The notes below the pieces were generated by a model. The model was given only the letters and a program-made list of their open reading frames with translations, made no database searches and was not told the DNA's origin. A stretch of 64,000 bases of DNA from Phenylobacterium aquaticum (GTDB taxonomy: Bacteria > Pseudomonadota > Alphaproteobacteria > Caulobacterales > Caulobacteraceae): contig CANCJJ010000005.1 in NCBI GenBank assembly GCA_947378305.1, forward strand, positions 1 through 64,000, given 5' to 3'. The translations under genes and the position numbers were made by a program. Positions 33,247 to 46,705 of this stretch are shown piece after piece. Within the stretch, counting starts at the first letter, position 1, and every line of letters starts with the position of its first letter.

Positions 33247-33257
33247 GCTGACCTGAC

Positions 33258-33284
33258 CGCAATCGCCATGAGGTGGCGATTGCG
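33258..33284 (+). terminator. Strong hairpin after ilvD
   Basis: Perfect 11-base-pair stem CGCAATCGCCA / TGGCGATTGCG with loop TGAGG, 12 bases behind the ilvD stop. No T tract follows, so it may act as a 3'-end stabiliser or with the second hairpin as a bidirectional terminator between convergent genes. Confidence 0.5.
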
Positions 33285-33293
33285 AGGCTTGGA

Positions 33294-33315
33294 GGGGCTC
33301 ACGCTATGGAGCCCC
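33294..33315 (-). terminator. Second hairpin between convergent genes
   Basis: GGGGCTC / GAGCCCC stem with an eight-base loop. It lies 12 bases from the stop of the leftward MarR-like gene and probably ends its transcript, although the following bases on the minus strand are not T-rich. Confidence 0.4.
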
Positions 33316-33326
33316 GCCTCAAGAGA

Positions 33327-33623
33327 TCACTGAACGATCGTGCTGATCGTATTGACGAATTTCGGCTTGATCCGGTGGAGTTTCCGTCGGCGATCCGTCG
33401 TGTCAGATACGATGGTGATCACGCCAATGGTTTCCAGGTTCCTCAGGCAATTGTTCACCGAGGCCGGCGAGAATCGCGAACTGCGGATGATGTCGTTGGA
33501 CGACGGTGCACCCAGCTTGTTGATGAGCAACAGGACCTCGAGCTCGAGGGTCATGGTCTTGATCCCGAGTTCGGTTTCGATCTGCCTCATTTTGGCAATT
33601 GGATCGTTCAATTTATGCTCCAT
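33327..33623 (-). CDS. Small MarR-like winged-helix DNA-binding protein
   Basis: A 98-residue protein whose central part TLELEVLLLINKLGAPSSNDIIRSSRFSPASVNNCLRNLETIGVITIVSDTTDRRRKLHRI is a winged helix: SSNDIIRSSRFSPASVNNCLRNL is the helix-turn-helix and the Asp/Arg-rich hairpin is the wing, as in MarR proteins. It lacks the long dimerisation helices of full MarR proteins (about 140 residues) but has a short N-terminal helix. The ribosome site before ATG 33623 is weak. It opens into a long AT-rich gene-free region that may carry its operator. Target unknown. Confidence 0.65.
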   Translation of the reverse strand: MEHKLNDPIAKMRQIETELGIKTMTLELEVLLLINKLGAPSSNDIIRSSRFSPASVNNCLRNLETIGVITIVSDTTDRRRKLHRIKPKFVNTISTIVQ

Positions 33624-34062
33624 TTGCGAACGTCTAATTTATTGTAGTGCTCATATGCTATAATTCACCAGGATTGCACGCGAAACATTGACTTAAGGTA
33701 ATTTTGTTAAACGCAATTCATATTGATGTAACAATCAATTAAACGCTTTTATATTAGCAGCGCGGATTGCGTAGGTCGGTGCAAGATCCAGTTTCTCATG
33801 TCGCGGTGTCGCCCAGCTATTTTCGATTGATAGCTTCCTCGATTTTTCCGTGCTCATGAAAATATGATCGAGTTTCTGCTAGCTTGAGTTTTTAGATTAG
33901 TCTTTAAAAATAAGGGGATGTGAGCATACTGATACAAGCAAAGGCTTTTTATGCCCGGATTCATGGGAGGTTTGACGCTTGACGCAGACAGTAATGCAAC
34001 TAAACACCTCCCACCCTCCGCGGTGGCCCCGCTGCAAAATTCACCGGATTTGAATCAAAAAC
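33624..34062. other. AT-rich gene-free region, 439 bases
   Basis: The longest non-coding stretch in the window and clearly AT-richer than its surroundings (the line 33661-33720 counts 21 G/C in 60). It must hold the divergent promoters of the MarR-like gene and the ArsR-rhodanese gene. Visible structures: the inverted repeat ATTGAT-6 bases-ATCAAT (33722-33739), CTCGAT/ATCGAG arms (33838-33872), TTTTTA/TAAAAA arms (33889-33910) and tandem TTGACG at 33972 and 33979, the second 16 bases before TAAACA. No convincing gene or known RNA was recognised. Confidence 0.55.
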
Positions 34063-34713
34063 GTGATTTTTCCGACCGAAAGCCTCGAAAACCTGATTAT
34101 GGACGGCGTCGCAGATGTCGGTAAGGCGCTTGCGAGTCCTATTCGGCTGCGGGTTATTCGCCTCTTGAGCCAAAGCGAGCGGTCTGTGGAGGGGTTGGCG
34201 GCCAGCCTTGATATTTCCGTTGCAAATCTCTCCCAGCATCTTCAAGTCCTGAAACGTTCGGGCTTCCTGAATTCCCGTCGCGACGGTCGTCGGGTGTATT
34301 ACCAGGTCAGCAATCGCGGCGTCATGGTTGTGTCCCTGGCCTTGGCGAAATGGGCCGAGGGCCGGTCGGATGTGGGGTCCTCGTTATACAGCTTCATGGC
34401 GAAGTCGACCCCGATCAGCCGAGCTGAACTTGTCGAAGGGCTAAAGGTCGGCAAAATCACCGTGATTGATGTTCGTCACCCGGAAGAGTTCGCGGTGGAT
34501 TGCGTCCCTGGGGCCATTAATATTCCATCCCATGAGCTGGAGCGTCGTGTGGGCGAAGTGCCTGCTGACCGTGACGTCGTCATTTGCGGCCAGGGTCTCT
34601 ATAGCCCTGATGCCTCCCAGGCCCTGTCGATGCTATCGGGCCTCAAACTGAACCTGCGCTATCTGGACGGCGGCTATATGGCCTGGTGCGCAGGCGTCGC
34701 TGACGACGCCTAG
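34063..34713 (+). CDS. ArsR-family regulator fused to a rhodanese domain
   Basis: A 216-residue two-domain protein. Residues 15-100 are an ArsR-type winged helix (LASPIRLRVIRLLSQSERSVEGLAASLDISVANLSQHLQVLKRSGFL). Residues 118-216 are a rhodanese domain (KITVIDVRHPEEFAVDCVPGAINIP, then DVVICGQGLYSPDASQAL, then YLDGGYMAW) with the expected active-site Cys at 175. The usual loop CxxGxxS/R is altered to CGQGLYS. ArsR-rhodanese fusions are thought to sense persulfides or redox stress. Start GTG 34063; ATG 34099 is possible. The stop overlaps the convergent hspQ stop. Confidence 0.8.
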   Translation: MIFPTESLENLIMDGVADVGKALASPIRLRVIRLLSQSERSVEGLAASLDISVANLSQHLQVLKRSGFLNSRRDGRRVYYQVSNRGVMVVSLALAKWAEGRSDVGSSLYSFMAKSTPISRAELVEGLKVGKITVIDVRHPEEFAVDCVPGAINIPSHELERRVGEVPADRDVVICGQGLYSPDASQALSMLSGLKLNLRYLDGGYMAWCAGVADDA

Positions 34714-39000: not shown

Positions 39001-40279
39001 CGGTGGACGGTTAACCGCAGCCATCGAGGTCCTCACCGACGTCGAGACCCGTCACCGGCCTGTCCGGATGGCCCTGAAGACCTGGGGCGAGTCCGCGCGC
39101 TATGCCGGGTCCAAGGATCGCGCCAGCGTGGCCGGACTGGCGCTCGACGCCCTGCGGCGACGGCGCTCGCTCGCCTGGCAGATGGGCGATGACAGTCCCC
39201 GCGCCGCCGTCCTTGCCGTGCTCCATTTCCAGTGGGGCTGGTCGCTTGAACGTGTGGCCGAGGCCGTTGCTGAGGAGTTTCATGGCCACGGTCCCTTGTC
39301 AGAGGCCGAAACGGCGGCCCTGACGAGCCCCAGGGACTTGTCCGGTGCGCCCGACAGCGTTCGCGCCGATGTCCCGCAATGGCTCGAAGCCTCCTTCCAG
39401 CGCATCTATGGCTCCCGCATGGTGGAAGAAGGCCAGGCCCTGGCTGCGCGGGCCCCCATCGACCTGCGGATCAATACCTTAAAGGCGGACCGGGAACGGG
39501 GACTCAAGGCCACCGCACCCCTCAATGCCCATCCCCTCGATCTCTTGCCCAATGCCCTGCGCATTGAGCCCCCCGCTGCCGAGGCGCGGGCCGGGTCGGT
39601 GGAATCCATTCCCGCCTTCTCCAAGGGCTGGTTCGAGGTCCAGGATCTTGGGTCCCAGATTGCCGCAGCCTGTGCCGGAAACGTGCGGGGCGCGCAGGTT
39701 CTGGACCTCTGTGCCGGGGGCGGGGGAAAGACCCTGGCCCTGGCCGCCGCCATGGGCAATACCGGCCAGATCTATGCCTATGACAGCGAAGCCCGTCGTC
39801 TGGCCGATACCATTCGCCGGGGTGACCGTGCAGGGGTGCGCAACCTTCAGATTCGCTCGCCCGTTCATGGAGATGCCCTTCAGGGACTTGAAGGCCGCAT
39901 GGACGTGGTCTTCATCGATGCGCCCTGTTCCGGCTCCGGGGCCTGGCGTCGGCATCCCGACACCAAATGGCGGCTGAGTGCGGAAAATTTCGAGCGTCGT
40001 CAGGCTGATCAGGACGCCGTGCTCGACCTGGGCGCGGCCTATGCAAAGGTGGGCGGGCGGCTCATCTATGTCACCTGTTCGGTCCTGCCGGAGGAAGACG
40101 AAGATCGCGTCACAGCCTTCCTCGCCCGGCGTCCCGACTATATCGTCAGGCCTGCGACCGATGATCCGGCCCTGGCAGGTTTCCTGACGTCTGAAGGCTA
40201 TCTGCGACTAACCCCGGCCTCGGCGGGTACGGACGGCTTCTTTGTCGCCGTGCTTGAGCGAACGGCACAACCGAACTGA
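38993..40279 (+). CDS. rsmB: RsmB-family 16S rRNA (cytosine-5) methyltransferase
   Basis: A 428-residue m5C methyltransferase. The first 140 residues are helical and NusB-like, as in RsmB. The catalytic part has [16 protein letters not shown] (SAM), [18 protein letters not shown] (motif IV Cys) and [12 protein letters not shown] (motif VI Cys). The frame is open to an ATG at 38957, but the TTG at 38993, giving [14 protein letters not shown], overlaps the MAPEG gene by only eight bases and matches the usual N-terminus. It sits between guaB and guaA. Confidence 0.87.
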
Positions 40280-40289
40280 AAGGCTGAAT

Positions 40290-41852
40290 ATGGCTAGCCA
40301 GCCCACCCATGAGCGGGTCCTGATCGTCGACTTTGGCAGCCAGGTCACCCAGTTGATCGCCCGGCGACTGCGCGAAAGCGGCGTCTATTGCGAAATCCAC
40401 CCCTACGACAAGATCGAGGCCATGCTGGACGCCTTCGCGCCCCGGGCGGTCATCTTGTCCGGCGGGCCCGCCAGTGCCCATGAGGACGAGAGCCCTGCGG
40501 TCACGCCCCGGGTCTTTGAGTTGGGCGTTCCCGTTCTGGGGATTTGCTATGGCGAAATGACCCTCTGCGCCCAGCTGGGCGGACGTGTGGAAAGCGGCCA
40601 TGCCCGCGAGTTCGGTCGCGCCGAGATCCGCATCGAGCGAGAGAGCCCGCTTCTGGCCGGCCTGGGGGATGTGGGGGACCGCGAAAGCGTCTGGATGAGC
40701 CATGGCGACAAGATCACCGCCGTGCCGCTTGGCTTTGACGTCGTGGCCTCCTCGGAGGGCAGTCCCTATGCCGTAATTGCCGATGAAGGCCGGCGTTTCT
40801 ATGGCATCCAGTTCCACCCCGAGGTTGCCCATACCCCGCGCGGGGCCCTGATCCTGCGCAACTTCACCCACAAGATTGCCGGGCTGACCGGCGACTGGAC
40901 CATGGCCTCTTTCCGTCAGGAAATGGTGGCAAAAATCCGGGATCAGGTCGGCGAGGGCCGGGTGATCTGCGGGCTCTCCGGCGGCGTGGATTCCTCGGTG
41001 GCGGCGGTTCTGATCCATGAGGCCATTGGCGACCAGCTAACCTGCGTCTTCGTCGATACCGGCCTCCTGCGCCATAATGAAGCCGAGCAGGTCGTGACCA
41101 TGTTCCGCGACCATTACAACATCCCTCTGGTCCATGTTGAGGCCGGGGACTTGTTCCTGGGCGAGCTGGCCGGAGTGTCCGACCCGGAGACCAAGCGCAA
41201 GACCATCGGCCGCCTGTTTATCGAGGTCTTCGATCGCGAGGCCGCAAAGATCGAGGGGGCAGCCTTCCTGGCCCAGGGCACCCTCTATCCCGACGTCATT
41301 GAAAGCGTCTCGGCCCGGGGCGGCCCCTCGGCCGTCATCAAGAGCCACCACAATGTGGGCGGCCTTCCGGACTATATGAAGCTCAAACTGGTCGAGCCCC
41401 TGCGCGAACTGTTTAAGGATGAGGTGCGGGTCTTGGGCGTCGAGCTGGGCCTTCCGCCCCAGTTTGTGGGACGCCACCCCTTCCCGGGGCCGGGCCTGGC
41501 CATCCGCATACCCGGCGAAATCACTCGCGAAAAAGTCGCCGTCCTGCAAAAGGCCGACGCCATCTATCTTGAGGAGATCCGCAAGGCTGGCCTCTATGAC
41601 CAGATCTGGCAGGCCTTCGCCGTGCTCCTGCCGGTCAAGACGGTGGGCGTCATGGGCGATGCCCGGACCTATGAAGACGTCCTGGCCCTGCGCGCGGTCA
41701 CCTCAACCGACGGCATGACCGCCGACTTCTTCGAATTCCCCTGGGCAGTCCTGGGTCGCTGTGCGACGCGGATCATCAACGAGGTGAGGGGGGTCAACCG
41801 GGTTGTCTATGACGTGACCAGCAAGCCGCCTGGCACGATTGAGTGGGAGTAA
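40290..41852 (+). CDS. guaA: GMP synthase (glutamine-hydrolysing)
   Basis: Amidates XMP to GMP. The N-terminal class I glutaminase has [10 protein letters not shown] with nucleophile Cys86 and [12 protein letters not shown] with the catalytic His and Glu. The ATP-pyrophosphatase domain has the PP-loop [13 protein letters not shown], and the C-terminal dimerisation domain ends in the conserved [11 protein letters not shown] 40290 follows AAAGG; length 520 is typical. The next gene, very AT-rich, begins 24 bases behind the stop. Confidence 0.97.
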
Positions 41853-41876
41853 CCTATTCCAGGTTATCGCTTAAGG

Positions 41877-43292
41877 ATGAAAAAATTATCATTAATTTTA
41901 ATTTTATTTTTGGCATCATGCAATAATAGCAGCGGTGGTGCTAATATAGACCAACCAGTAACGCCCTTAGTCAAAGTCGAGACGCTTGAAACGACAGCTC
42001 AAGTGAATCTGGGTCAATTTGATCTTAATTCCGATTCGAATTATTTTGGGACAGATGAAGTTTGGTTCAACTTATTATCTTCTGGAGAAATTAACGGTGA
42101 CGGAAACGATGATCTGGTTGTAGGATTAATGAGAATTGATTACAATAAAAATCCAAGCGGTGCAATTACACCGGTTATTTTAATGTTTGATAATTCAAAT
42201 TTTAAATTTCAGACGGATAAACAGATCCAAAGTGTCTTGAGCAAAAATCAACATCCACGTCAGGCTGCGATAACTGATATCGATGGGGATGGAAGGTCAG
42301 ATATATTTATAGCTGATCATGGATATGATGATGCACCTTATGGAGCTCAGAACACACTTCTGCTGAATAAAAATTCTGGTTTTGTTAATGCGACGAATAT
42401 GTTGCCACAATATTCAGATTATTCTCATGGAATTATCATCGATGACTTCGATATAAACGGAAGAAAAGATATACTTGTTATAAATAATTTTCTTACCTCT
42501 GACACCAAATGCAATTTAGTCCCTGGCTTCAATGATTGTGGAGATTCTAGTGGCAAGCGAGTGATGGAGAGCTACGTCTTATTTAATGAGGTAAAATTAA
42601 GGCAAGGTACATTTAGTCTTTCAAAATTTAATGACATTAATTTTACGTCTACCGATAATTTAATTGATAATAGACTTACTGTAGGATCTTCATCTGATTT
42701 CAATAAAGATGGCGTGCCTGATTTGGTTGTAGCCGACAATTCAAAGATAAAAATTTTAGAGTCAGATGGTGTTGCTAAATACAAACCGTCTATTTTATTT
42801 TATCCGAGCGACGATTTTAAAAAATTCTGTGGGTCAAATCCGTTACCCTATTCCTATATTTCTACACAGGATTTGAATGCCGATGGGGTTAATGAAATTA
42901 TTGCCTCCTATTCATGTAGTTGGAATTATAACGAATTTCAGGTTTTAAGGAAAAATAATGAAGCCTGGAAAGATGTGACAAGTGACTATTTCTCTGATCA
43001 GTCCATTAATCGGAAAAATCAAGATGGCTGGTGTTATAAAATAATTTTTGAAGACTTGGATCTAGATGGAAAAAAAGACTTAATTTGTAACTCTGGTCGC
43101 GGTTTTGGTTGGGAGACGAATAACGTAATTTGGATGAACACCTCCGGGAAATTTGTTTATAAAGATCTTCAGTTTGTCAATCGTCGATCATCGGGTTGGC
43201 ACACACCAGTGACACTAAATAGTCATCGTTACATTATTGGTTTAGTCAAATCTGGCTCCAAGGTTGATGTTGTCGGATGGAAAATTCGTTAA
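41877..43292 (+). CDS. AT-rich FG-GAP/VCBS-repeat lipoprotein, probably acquired
   Basis: A 471-residue predicted lipoprotein: MKKLSLILILFLASC gives a signal with lipobox LASC (Cys15) and Asn at +2. Six calcium-binding-type loops D-x-D/N-x-D/N-G-x-x-D lie at residues 72-80, 134-142, 190-198, 274-282, 332-340 and 393-402, spaced mostly 56-62 residues apart, so the fold is probably an integrin-like beta-propeller of six or seven blades. Base composition differs sharply from everything around it (19 and 17 G/C in two 60-base lines checked), and AT-ending codons dominate. AAGG precedes the ATG closely. It has its own terminator. Function unknown; surface binding or adhesion is possible. Confidence 0.8.
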   Translation: MKKLSLILILFLASCNNSSGGANIDQPVTPLVKVETLETTAQVNLGQFDLNSDSNYFGTDEVWFNLLSSGEINGDGNDDLVVGLMRIDYNKNPSGAITPVILMFDNSNFKFQTDKQIQSVLSKNQHPRQAAITDIDGDGRSDIFIADHGYDDAPYGAQNTLLLNKNSGFVNATNMLPQYSDYSHGIIIDDFDINGRKDILVINNFLTSDTKCNLVPGFNDCGDSSGKRVMESYVLFNEVKLRQGTFSLSKFNDINFTSTDNLIDNRLTVGSSSDFNKDGVPDLVVADNSKIKILESDGVAKYKPSILFYPSDDFKKFCGSNPLPYSYISTQDLNADGVNEIIASYSCSWNYNEFQVLRKNNEAWKDVTSDYFSDQSINRKNQDGWCYKIIFEDLDLDGKKDLICNSGRGFGWETNNVIWMNTSGKFVYKDLQFVNRRSSGWHTPVTLNSHRYIIGLVKSGSKVDVVGWKIR

Positions 43293-43296
43293 ATTT

Positions 43297-43316
43297 ATTT
43301 CGAAACGAAATTTTTA
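43297..43316 (+). terminator. Terminator of the FG-GAP lipoprotein gene
   Basis: ATTTCG / CGAAAT stem with an AAA loop followed by TTTTTATC, five bases behind the stop codon. The AT-rich stem matches the composition of the gene, not of the host, suggesting it came with the gene. Confidence 0.6.
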
Positions 43317-43449
43317 TCTATTGGGTACCGGCATGGATTTTCGACCCGTCCCTCAAATGCCTCCCTCGCTCTCCACCACCAGAATCATAGCCTCGCGCAT
43401 TCTTCCCGGACCGATTGAACCCCAATCCCTCCGCTTGTAGGCTCTGCCC

Positions 43450-44106
43450 ATGTACCGTCCCGCCCAATTCAGTTCCGACGATCCTCAGGTCGCCATTGAC
43501 CTCATGCGCGCCCATCCGTTTGCGAGCCTGATCTCGGTGGATGAAGCGGGCGGCCCGGTCGTTAGTCACTTGCCCCTGCACTGGCAGGCACCGTCCGGGA
43601 CTGGACCGGGCGGAGTGGGCGGGACATGGGGGCACTTGCTGGGCCATCTCGCCCGGGCCAATCCCCACGCGGACCTGCTGCAAAACCGTCCGCGCGCCCT
43701 GGTCACCTTTATGGGGCCACACGCCTTTATGTCGCCCCGGGTCTATCCGGACCTCATGCGGGTTCCGACCTGGAATTACCTGGCCGTTCACTGCGAAGTC
43801 GAGGCGACGATTCTGGACGACCCCGCCGACAAGGACGCCCTGCTCAAGTACCTGATCGCCGACCATGATCCGGCCTATGCCGACCAGTGGCGCAGCCTGC
43901 CCAAGGACTATTCGGCGAGGATGCTCCAGGGGATTGTCGCCTTCTCTCTGGACATCATCAGCCTGGAGTGCACAGCAAAGCTCAACCAGCACCGGCCCGA
44001 AGCCCGTACTGGCATGCTGGAAGCCTACGACCAAGGCACCCCCGATGCCCGCGCCCTGGCGGACTGGATGCGTAGGCTGGGCGACGATCCACAGGACAAA
44101 CCATGA
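43450..44106 (+). CDS. PaiB-family FMN-binding negative transcriptional regulator
   Basis: A 218-residue protein of the FMN-binding split-barrel PaiB group: MYRPAQFSSDDPQVAIDLMRAHPFASLI at the start, PLHWQ, LLGHLARANPH, FMGPHAFMSPRVY and VPTWNYLAVHCEVEA, then FSLDIISLECTAKLNQHRP near the end. PaiB of Bacillus represses sporulation and protease genes; most homologues are uncharacterised and may be flavin- or heme-binding enzymes. It overlaps the ArsC-like gene by four bases (ATGA). Confidence 0.87.
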   Translation: MYRPAQFSSDDPQVAIDLMRAHPFASLISVDEAGGPVVSHLPLHWQAPSGTGPGGVGGTWGHLLGHLARANPHADLLQNRPRALVTFMGPHAFMSPRVYPDLMRVPTWNYLAVHCEVEATILDDPADKDALLKYLIADHDPAYADQWRSLPKDYSARMLQGIVAFSLDIISLECTAKLNQHRPEARTGMLEAYDQGTPDARALADWMRRLGDDPQDKP

Positions 44107-44450
44107 CCCTTGTCGTCTACGGCATCCCCAATTGCGACACGGTCAAGAAGGCCAAGACCTGGCTCGATGGGCGGGGTCTGGGGTTTGCGTTTCATGACTA
44201 CCGACAGGCCGGCGTTGATGCCGGGCAACTGGCCAGGTGGTGCGACGTCTTGGGCTGGGAGGCTGTGTTGAACCGGTCGGGCACCACCTTCCGCAAGCTG
44301 TCCGAAGCAGAGCGGACCGGGCTGAATCAGGCCCGCGCCGTGGCCCTGATGATCGCCCAGCCCGCCATGATCAAACGTCCCATCGTTGAATATGACAGGG
44401 GCCTGCTTGTTGGCTTCAAGCCCGACCAGTGGGCGACCGCCTTGGTCTAG
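44103..44450 (+). CDS. ArsC/Spx-family thioredoxin-fold protein (YffB-like)
   Basis: A 115-residue protein. VYGIPNCDTVKKAKTWLDGRG holds a single N-terminal Cys11 without the second Cys of thioredoxins, and MIKRPIVEYDRGLLVGF holds the Arg-Pro stretch of the ArsC family (KRP). This matches YffB-type proteins, glutathione-dependent reductases of uncertain substrate. It is cotranscribed with the PaiB-like gene and convergent with the TonB receptor (four-base overlap). Confidence 0.87.
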   Translation: MTLVVYGIPNCDTVKKAKTWLDGRGLGFAFHDYRQAGVDAGQLARWCDVLGWEAVLNRSGTTFRKLSEAERTGLNQARAVALMIAQPAMIKRPIVEYDRGLLVGFKPDQWATALV

Positions 44451-46574: not shown

Positions 46575-46705
46575 GACCGAGGCACGGTCTGACATGGCGA
46601 CGAGCAAAAAAAACGCCAGCAGCTGCATCCAAAGGCAGGGCGAGGGGGCTCTTAGTCTACAAATGGTGCAATTGTGGACCATGCGATCCGACAATGGAGA
46701 CCCTT

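Follow-up and report, generated by a model that had tools for sequence, protein, structure and literature searches.

A probably foreign, AT-rich gene for a predicted propeller lipoprotein directly behind guaA in Phenylobacterium aquaticum

We analysed a 64-kb stretch of the Phenylobacterium aquaticum genome (assembly GCA_947378305.1; hereafter, the window), which forms the start of a 166-kb contig (CANCJJ010000005.1, here C5) in a genome of 2.34 Mb and 33 contigs. Directly behind guaA, the gene for GMP synthase, the window carries a single AT-rich gene, the propeller gene, whose product is predicted from its sequence to be an FG-GAP/VCBS beta-propeller behind a lipobox. The explanation we favour, with reasonable but not high confidence, is that the gap behind guaA recently received one foreign gene, from an AT-rich bacterium, and that the product of this gene is a lipid-anchored propeller. 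Foreign origin of the gene appears well supported, because its composition is atypical, it was absent behind guaA in all relatives compared and no orthologue-grade match was found; its uptake was probably recent.

Composition and relatives of the propeller gene

The G+C content of the propeller gene was 35.2% overall and 29.9% at third codon positions. We compared this with a 504-kb sample made up of the window and 22 stretches of 20 kb from the same genome. The gene had the lowest G+C content of the 430 mechanically called open reading frames (ORFs) of at least 100 aa, and it lay about 8 standard deviations (SD) below the mean of the 371 ORFs of at least 150 aa (61.7%, SD 3.2). The next five lowest 1-kb places in the sample were milder (38–50% G+C), and the propeller-gene stretch is the most extreme, though not the sole, place of odd composition in the sample. 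Segmentation placed the left border of the AT-rich stretch at the guaA stop codon (TAA at 41850–41852; support interval 41831–41871) and gave a support interval of 43317–43345 for the right border. The initial annotation had described a single AT-rich gene starting 24 bases behind the guaA stop, as was found; its end coordinate (43316) included a presumed terminator, and the ORF itself stops at 43292.

At a threshold of E 1e-100, guaA was found in 36 of 39 relatives from the genus. The DNA 3' of guaA was compared in 31 of them, leaving out one with only 139 bases behind guaA (G006) and four with partial guaA matches (G003, G017, G026, and G033). The propeller gene was absent behind guaA in 31 of 31 at E 1e-5, eight of these stretches being short (1.2–3.5 kb: G063, G015, G021, G008, G005, G001, G016, and G018). 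Nor was a second copy found in the gene's own genome at E 1.

Homologues of the protein were sought in 60 genomes: its own, 35 of the genus and 24 of the order. Partial matches were obtained at E 1e-3 in five of the 35 genus relatives (32–51% identity over 81–146 residues), and none in the 24 order relatives. The matched genus proteins are encoded at 65–70% G+C by open frames of about 620–800 codons and consist of a propeller followed by RTX repeats. HemolysinCabind was present in all four relatives scanned, namely three of the genus and L072, and a Pfam scan of the window protein found no such C-terminal repeats at E up to 1. An alignment over the whole propeller, including the shared pattern DxDGDGR.D.F.ADHGYD..P..GAQN, gave 26–29% identity between the genus propellers (for example L002, L003, and L005) and the window protein. 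By this comparison, the window protein is a lipobox-bearing, RTX-less relative of the genus propeller-RTX family and appears too diverged for a recent origin from that family.

Wider searches recovered only distant relatives. A class-level genome search at E 1e-12 returned one match (L072, 28% identity), a phylum sample of 398 genomes at E 1e-20 returned the gene's own genome only, and 369 genomes of a second class of the phylum returned no match; with their strict E limits, the class and phylum searches should recover an orthologue, though not distant members of the family. An alignment-based contig scan identified at least 47 relatives among at least 589 stretches, the best of the matches listed having E 4e-16 and 28% identity, and a scan by exact 8-residue words confirmed none of 32 pattern stretches as relatives. 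Plasmids yielded two distant matches (24–25% identity), and 50,697 phage records yielded none at E 1e-4. None of 11 viral-contig stretches, for which exact 8-residue words were needed, was confirmed.

A native gene of odd composition was rejected as an explanation, since the gene has the lowest G+C content of the 430 ORFs and a full-length match was found in none of the 35 genus relatives. A length-matched FG-GAP ORF from the genus (L143, 465 aa) was only 22–27% alike over parts. It belongs to a set of genus FG-GAP proteins (L143 to L148) with other architectures and weak relatedness to the window protein. A genus search with FG-GAP_3 at E 1e-8 was too strict to list the window gene itself, and therefore says nothing about further FG-GAP genes of the own genome.

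A predicted propeller lipoprotein

Two Pfam families scored above their curated cut-offs: FG-GAP_3 (75.4 bits, cut-off 26.9) and FG-GAP (45.6 bits, cut-off 22.1). The protein has six aspartate-rich loops (Table 1), a count reached by none of 1000 shuffles of its sequence. The initial annotation had claimed six regularly spaced D-x-D/N-x-D/N-G-x-x-D loops; the number stood, but the spacings were uneven (63, 56, 84, 58, and 61 residues) and four of the six loops fitted the strict motif. Translation and pattern matching alone gave an N-terminal signal, MKKLSLILILFLASC, containing LASC, which we take to be a lipobox, in agreement with the earlier proposal of one. The residue after its cysteine is asparagine. 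In Escherichia coli, asparagine rather than aspartate at this place allows sorting to the outer membrane.

The predicted model was a propeller (pTM 0.68, pLDDT 62, eight sequences in the alignment). Its best Foldseek matches were fungal PVL-type lectins (2bwr and 4tqj; 14–17% identity) and integrin alpha propellers (about 10–14% identity), and the likeness to both is one of predicted fold only. Profile matches, loops, lipobox and model together support the propeller lipoprotein first proposed, and the protein is probably a lipid-anchored, calcium-binding, propeller-shaped surface protein, with calcium binding and surface exposure suggested by its motifs. The VCBS supercluster of beta-propellers is that of Pereira and Lupas (2021; PMC8023676, in excerpt). 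The window protein resembles the VCBS/FG-GAP superfamily in its Pfam matches, DxDxDG loops, signal sequence and predicted propeller. Unlike that superfamily at large, it appears as a single propeller on a lipobox, encoded by an AT-rich stray gene for which our searches found no close relative.

Other family identities were considered and rejected. NCBIfam XAC2610 (23.8 bits) and Pfam PliI (19.2 bits) fell under their cut-offs (35 and 27, respectively), all three matches of a Protein Data Bank (PDB) sequence search were at chance level, and the PHROGs match to a phage or defence family was weak (E 0.043).

Table 1. Coordinates in the window of the propeller gene, its predicted motifs and its neighbours
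Feature	Positions	Strand	Basis or remark
Predicted FG-GAP/VCBS beta-propeller lipoprotein gene, 471 aa	41877–43292	+	ORF listing and translation, Pfam, predicted model, loop count
AT-rich, apparently inserted stretch	41850–43322		Maximum-likelihood two-border segmentation
Putative lipobox LASC, residues 12–15	41910–41921	+	Pattern match
Loop 1, EINGDGNDD, residues 71–79	42087–42113	+	Motif scan
Loop 2, DIDGDGRSD, residues 134–142	42276–42302	+	Motif scan; opens the ADHGYD...GAQN stretch common to the genus propeller-RTX proteins
Loop 3, DFDINGRKD, residues 190–198	42444–42470	+	Motif scan
Loop 4, DFNKDGVPD, residues 274–282	42696–42722	+	Motif scan
Loop 5, DLNADGVNE, residues 332–340	42870–42896	+	Motif scan
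Loop 6, DLDLDGKKD, residues 393–401	43053–43079	+	Motif scan
24-base gap, guaA stop to ATG	41853–41876	+	Hairpin TAACCT/AGGTTA overlaps the stop; no T run
guaA (GMP synthase), host gene	40242–41852	+	ORF; 83–93% protein identity to nearly full-length genus matches
FMN_bind_2 gene, host-like composition, right-hand neighbour	43450–44106	+	Family scan, genus comparison
ArsC-family gene	44103–44450	+	Found behind guaA in several relatives, as are the genes at 46694 and 47084

The site behind guaA and possible routes of entry

The content of the DNA 3' of guaA varied widely among the species. An arsC-like gene, present here as well, lay 0.04–7.8 kb behind guaA in nine of the 31 relatives, and in eight of these nine, homologues of the 46694 and 47084 genes came further on. 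The order guaA, arsC-like gene, 46694, 47084 is probably ancestral, to judge from these comparisons. The FMN_bind_2 gene had no counterpart behind guaA in any of the 31 relatives; matches elsewhere were found in two of the 39, at only 30–33% identity.

A tyrosine integrase was located directly behind guaA in eight of the 31 stretches, its open frame, as measured in seven cases, beginning 119–303 bases behind guaA. The one such integrase scanned combined Phage_integrase with Arm-DNA-bind_3. Copies of the guaA end were sought in 13 genomes, including six of the eight bearing the integrase, with distances taken from the listed coordinates. They were found about 64.6, 82.6, 84.1, 120.9, and 230 kb onward in G012, G023, G061, G025, and G011, respectively; the pattern with two mismatches gives chance matches, with a reversed control producing 0–2 per strand and genome. 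The integrases and the distant guaA-end copies support the guaA 3' end as an island hot spot in the genus, the role that had been assigned to it from general knowledge. The five genomes with distant copies (L060, L048, L055, L061, and L064, in the same order) apparently carry large islands behind guaA. G032 has a second guaA copy (contig C9, 1398–2945; 80% identity to the window guaA), followed after about 1 kb by an integrase match; an island may carry its own guaA there.

The published comparison closest to this site concerns guaA-associated islands, for which an 8-bp core, GAGTGGGA, is reported; ICERspD18B sits at the guaA 3' end with this core (both PMC7775301, in excerpt). Bases 41842–41849 of the window guaA also read GAGTGGGA. 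The window shares this core and the position with such islands, and differs from them in having neither integrase nor direct repeat, a junction unlike that of the genus islands and one AT-rich gene only.

Uptake by another route than an island, that is, transformation, transduction or gene-transfer-agent DNA followed by illegitimate or homologous recombination into a permissive gap behind guaA, has a probability that we place a little short of even, and is at least as likely as an island origin. The variable distance between guaA and the arsC-like gene is in keeping with it, and none of the nine relatives concerned has an integrase of the tested family there. The FMN_bind_2 neighbour, which likewise lacks a counterpart behind guaA, also fits. 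Neither homology nor a duplication pointing to such an event was found at the flanks, however, and the island model, too, predicts a junction right at the guaA stop.

The second possibility, raised by the initial annotation, is that the gene is what remains of a guaA island, which a tyrosine integrase would have inserted at GAGTGGGA and which later lost its integrase, right attachment site and other cargo. We regard this as possible, at roughly one chance in three. The AT-rich insert begins at 41850 with a support interval spanning the core, the integrases and guaA-end copies of the genus lie at the same place, and both core and islands are described in print (PMC7775301, in excerpt). The other marks of an island were missing. 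As first noted, the window held neither an integrase nor a second guaA end: the contig had no integrase at E 1e-5 among the matches listed, and tblastn with the genus guaA integrases matched nothing behind the window guaA and nothing in another three 20-kb stretches of C5. A mismatched copy of the guaA end, for which a downstream search had been suggested, was found neither in the window with up to three mismatches nor on the contig with up to two; one match with two mismatches lies on contig C3. The best resemblance to the guaA end at the right border, seven bases with at most one mismatch, was equalled by 150 of 500 shuffles and is at chance level.

The junction sequence also argues against an island. 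The window guaA ends in GAGTGGGAGTAACC, whereas all eight integrase-bearing relatives have GAGTGGGAATGAT. The latter junction occurs in two further relatives without an integrase of that family and is absent from the other 21 and from the window. The integrase thus accompanies 8 of 10 island-type junctions versus 0 of 21 others (one-sided p = 5.7e-6, a value inflated by kinship, with four of the eight integrases 99–100% alike); the link rests on one integrase family, among the matches listed.

Delivery as a phage- or plasmid-borne lipoprotein, for instance one for surface exclusion, is unlikely: such cargo typically includes small lipoprotein genes with an atypical base composition, but no relative was found in the phage records at E 1e-4 or, by exact 8-residue words, in the viral contigs, the plasmid matches were distant and the PHROGs match was weak. 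Least likely is an assembly chimera with a fragment of an AT-rich organism, which the 33 contigs and the use of one assembly of the species would permit, since an intact ORF would have to be misjoined independently at both ends, within a 166-kb contig and between host-like flanks (guaA to the left; the arsC-like gene, 46694 and sigma-like genes to the right) whose order is kept in relatives.

Other places in the genome also drew attention. A second dip in G+C content (about 50%) lies at 33252–34710 of the window and contains an unassigned short ORF and an ArsR/rhodanese gene. The genome holds at least three matches to PF00589 at E 1e-5, on contigs C1, C4, and C20. One of these (L076, 5378–6826) has an Arm-DNA-bind_3 domain and lies on a 33-kb contig with AT-rich patches, on which no guaA-type end was found; a frame around 14401–15725 of L076 resembles a TetR-type regulator by eye. 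An AT-rich frame (46%; L080, 18416–19999), whose start resembles an ATP-binding SMC/AAA-type protein by eye, is a candidate acquired gene.

Expression, function and significance

The promoter scan listed sigma-70-like sites inside the gene only, with none from 41600 to the ATG. The AT-rich terminator attributed to the gene did not hold up: its hairpin was no more stable than those of shuffled sequences (z 0.19) and the scan listed no terminator behind the gene. The idea that the guaA terminator had been shifted to the right border was dropped for the same reason, none being listed there. A transcript would most simply arise by read-through from guaA, because neither a promoter-like site nor a terminator was seen between the two genes, and the propeller gene is probably transcribed in this way.

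Several points weigh against the favoured explanation. A donor was not found in the whole-genome, contig, plasmid, phage or viral-contig searches. Confidence in the model is modest, with 132 of 471 residues below pLDDT 50 in a prediction built from eight sequences. The top structural matches also include unrelated propellers (KICSTOR, Ski8, LGI1, and nucleoporin Seh1), and the fold leaves the function unfixed because propellers are so common that unrelated ones rank this high. The promoter scan covered the sigma-70 consensus only. The start codon is preceded only by AAGG, directly abutting the ATG, which makes expression uncertain; at this distance it would make a poor ribosome site, and the gene may be translated weakly or by coupling to guaA. 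Finally, a misjoin is conceivable in an assembly of 33 contigs, although the sequence on either side of the gene is host-like.

Under the explanation that we favour, one gene from an AT-rich bacterium would have entered the gap behind guaA, a site of repeated gain and loss of DNA in the genus, and would be intact and used, expressed by read-through from guaA. Its product would be exported and lipid-anchored, with the fold of a calcium-stabilised propeller, probably seven-bladed, whose face could bind either a glycan ligand, like the fungal PVL lectins, or a protein ligand, like integrin alpha. We infer surface ligand binding as the likeliest function; the protein may act as a surface adhesin or receptor and would be a membrane-tethered counterpart of the genus propeller-RTX proteins. 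A speculative extension, to which we give little probability, is that this single gene is by itself a minimal unit of cargo, settled behind an essential housekeeping gene and borrowing that gene's transcription. It would encode a tethered form of a normally secreted propeller, would have kept no mobility genes, and with a single acquisition would alter the cell surface, in attachment or in the recognition of phages or partners.

A full-text literature search pairing guaA with FG-GAP found no paper. The protein is of an ordinary kind and the site of a kind already known, so that the case is a worked example more than a surprise. It would represent a clean single-gene acquisition at an island hot spot of its own genus, and it would add to a propeller family a member with a lipobox, where the relatives in the genus have RTX repeats.
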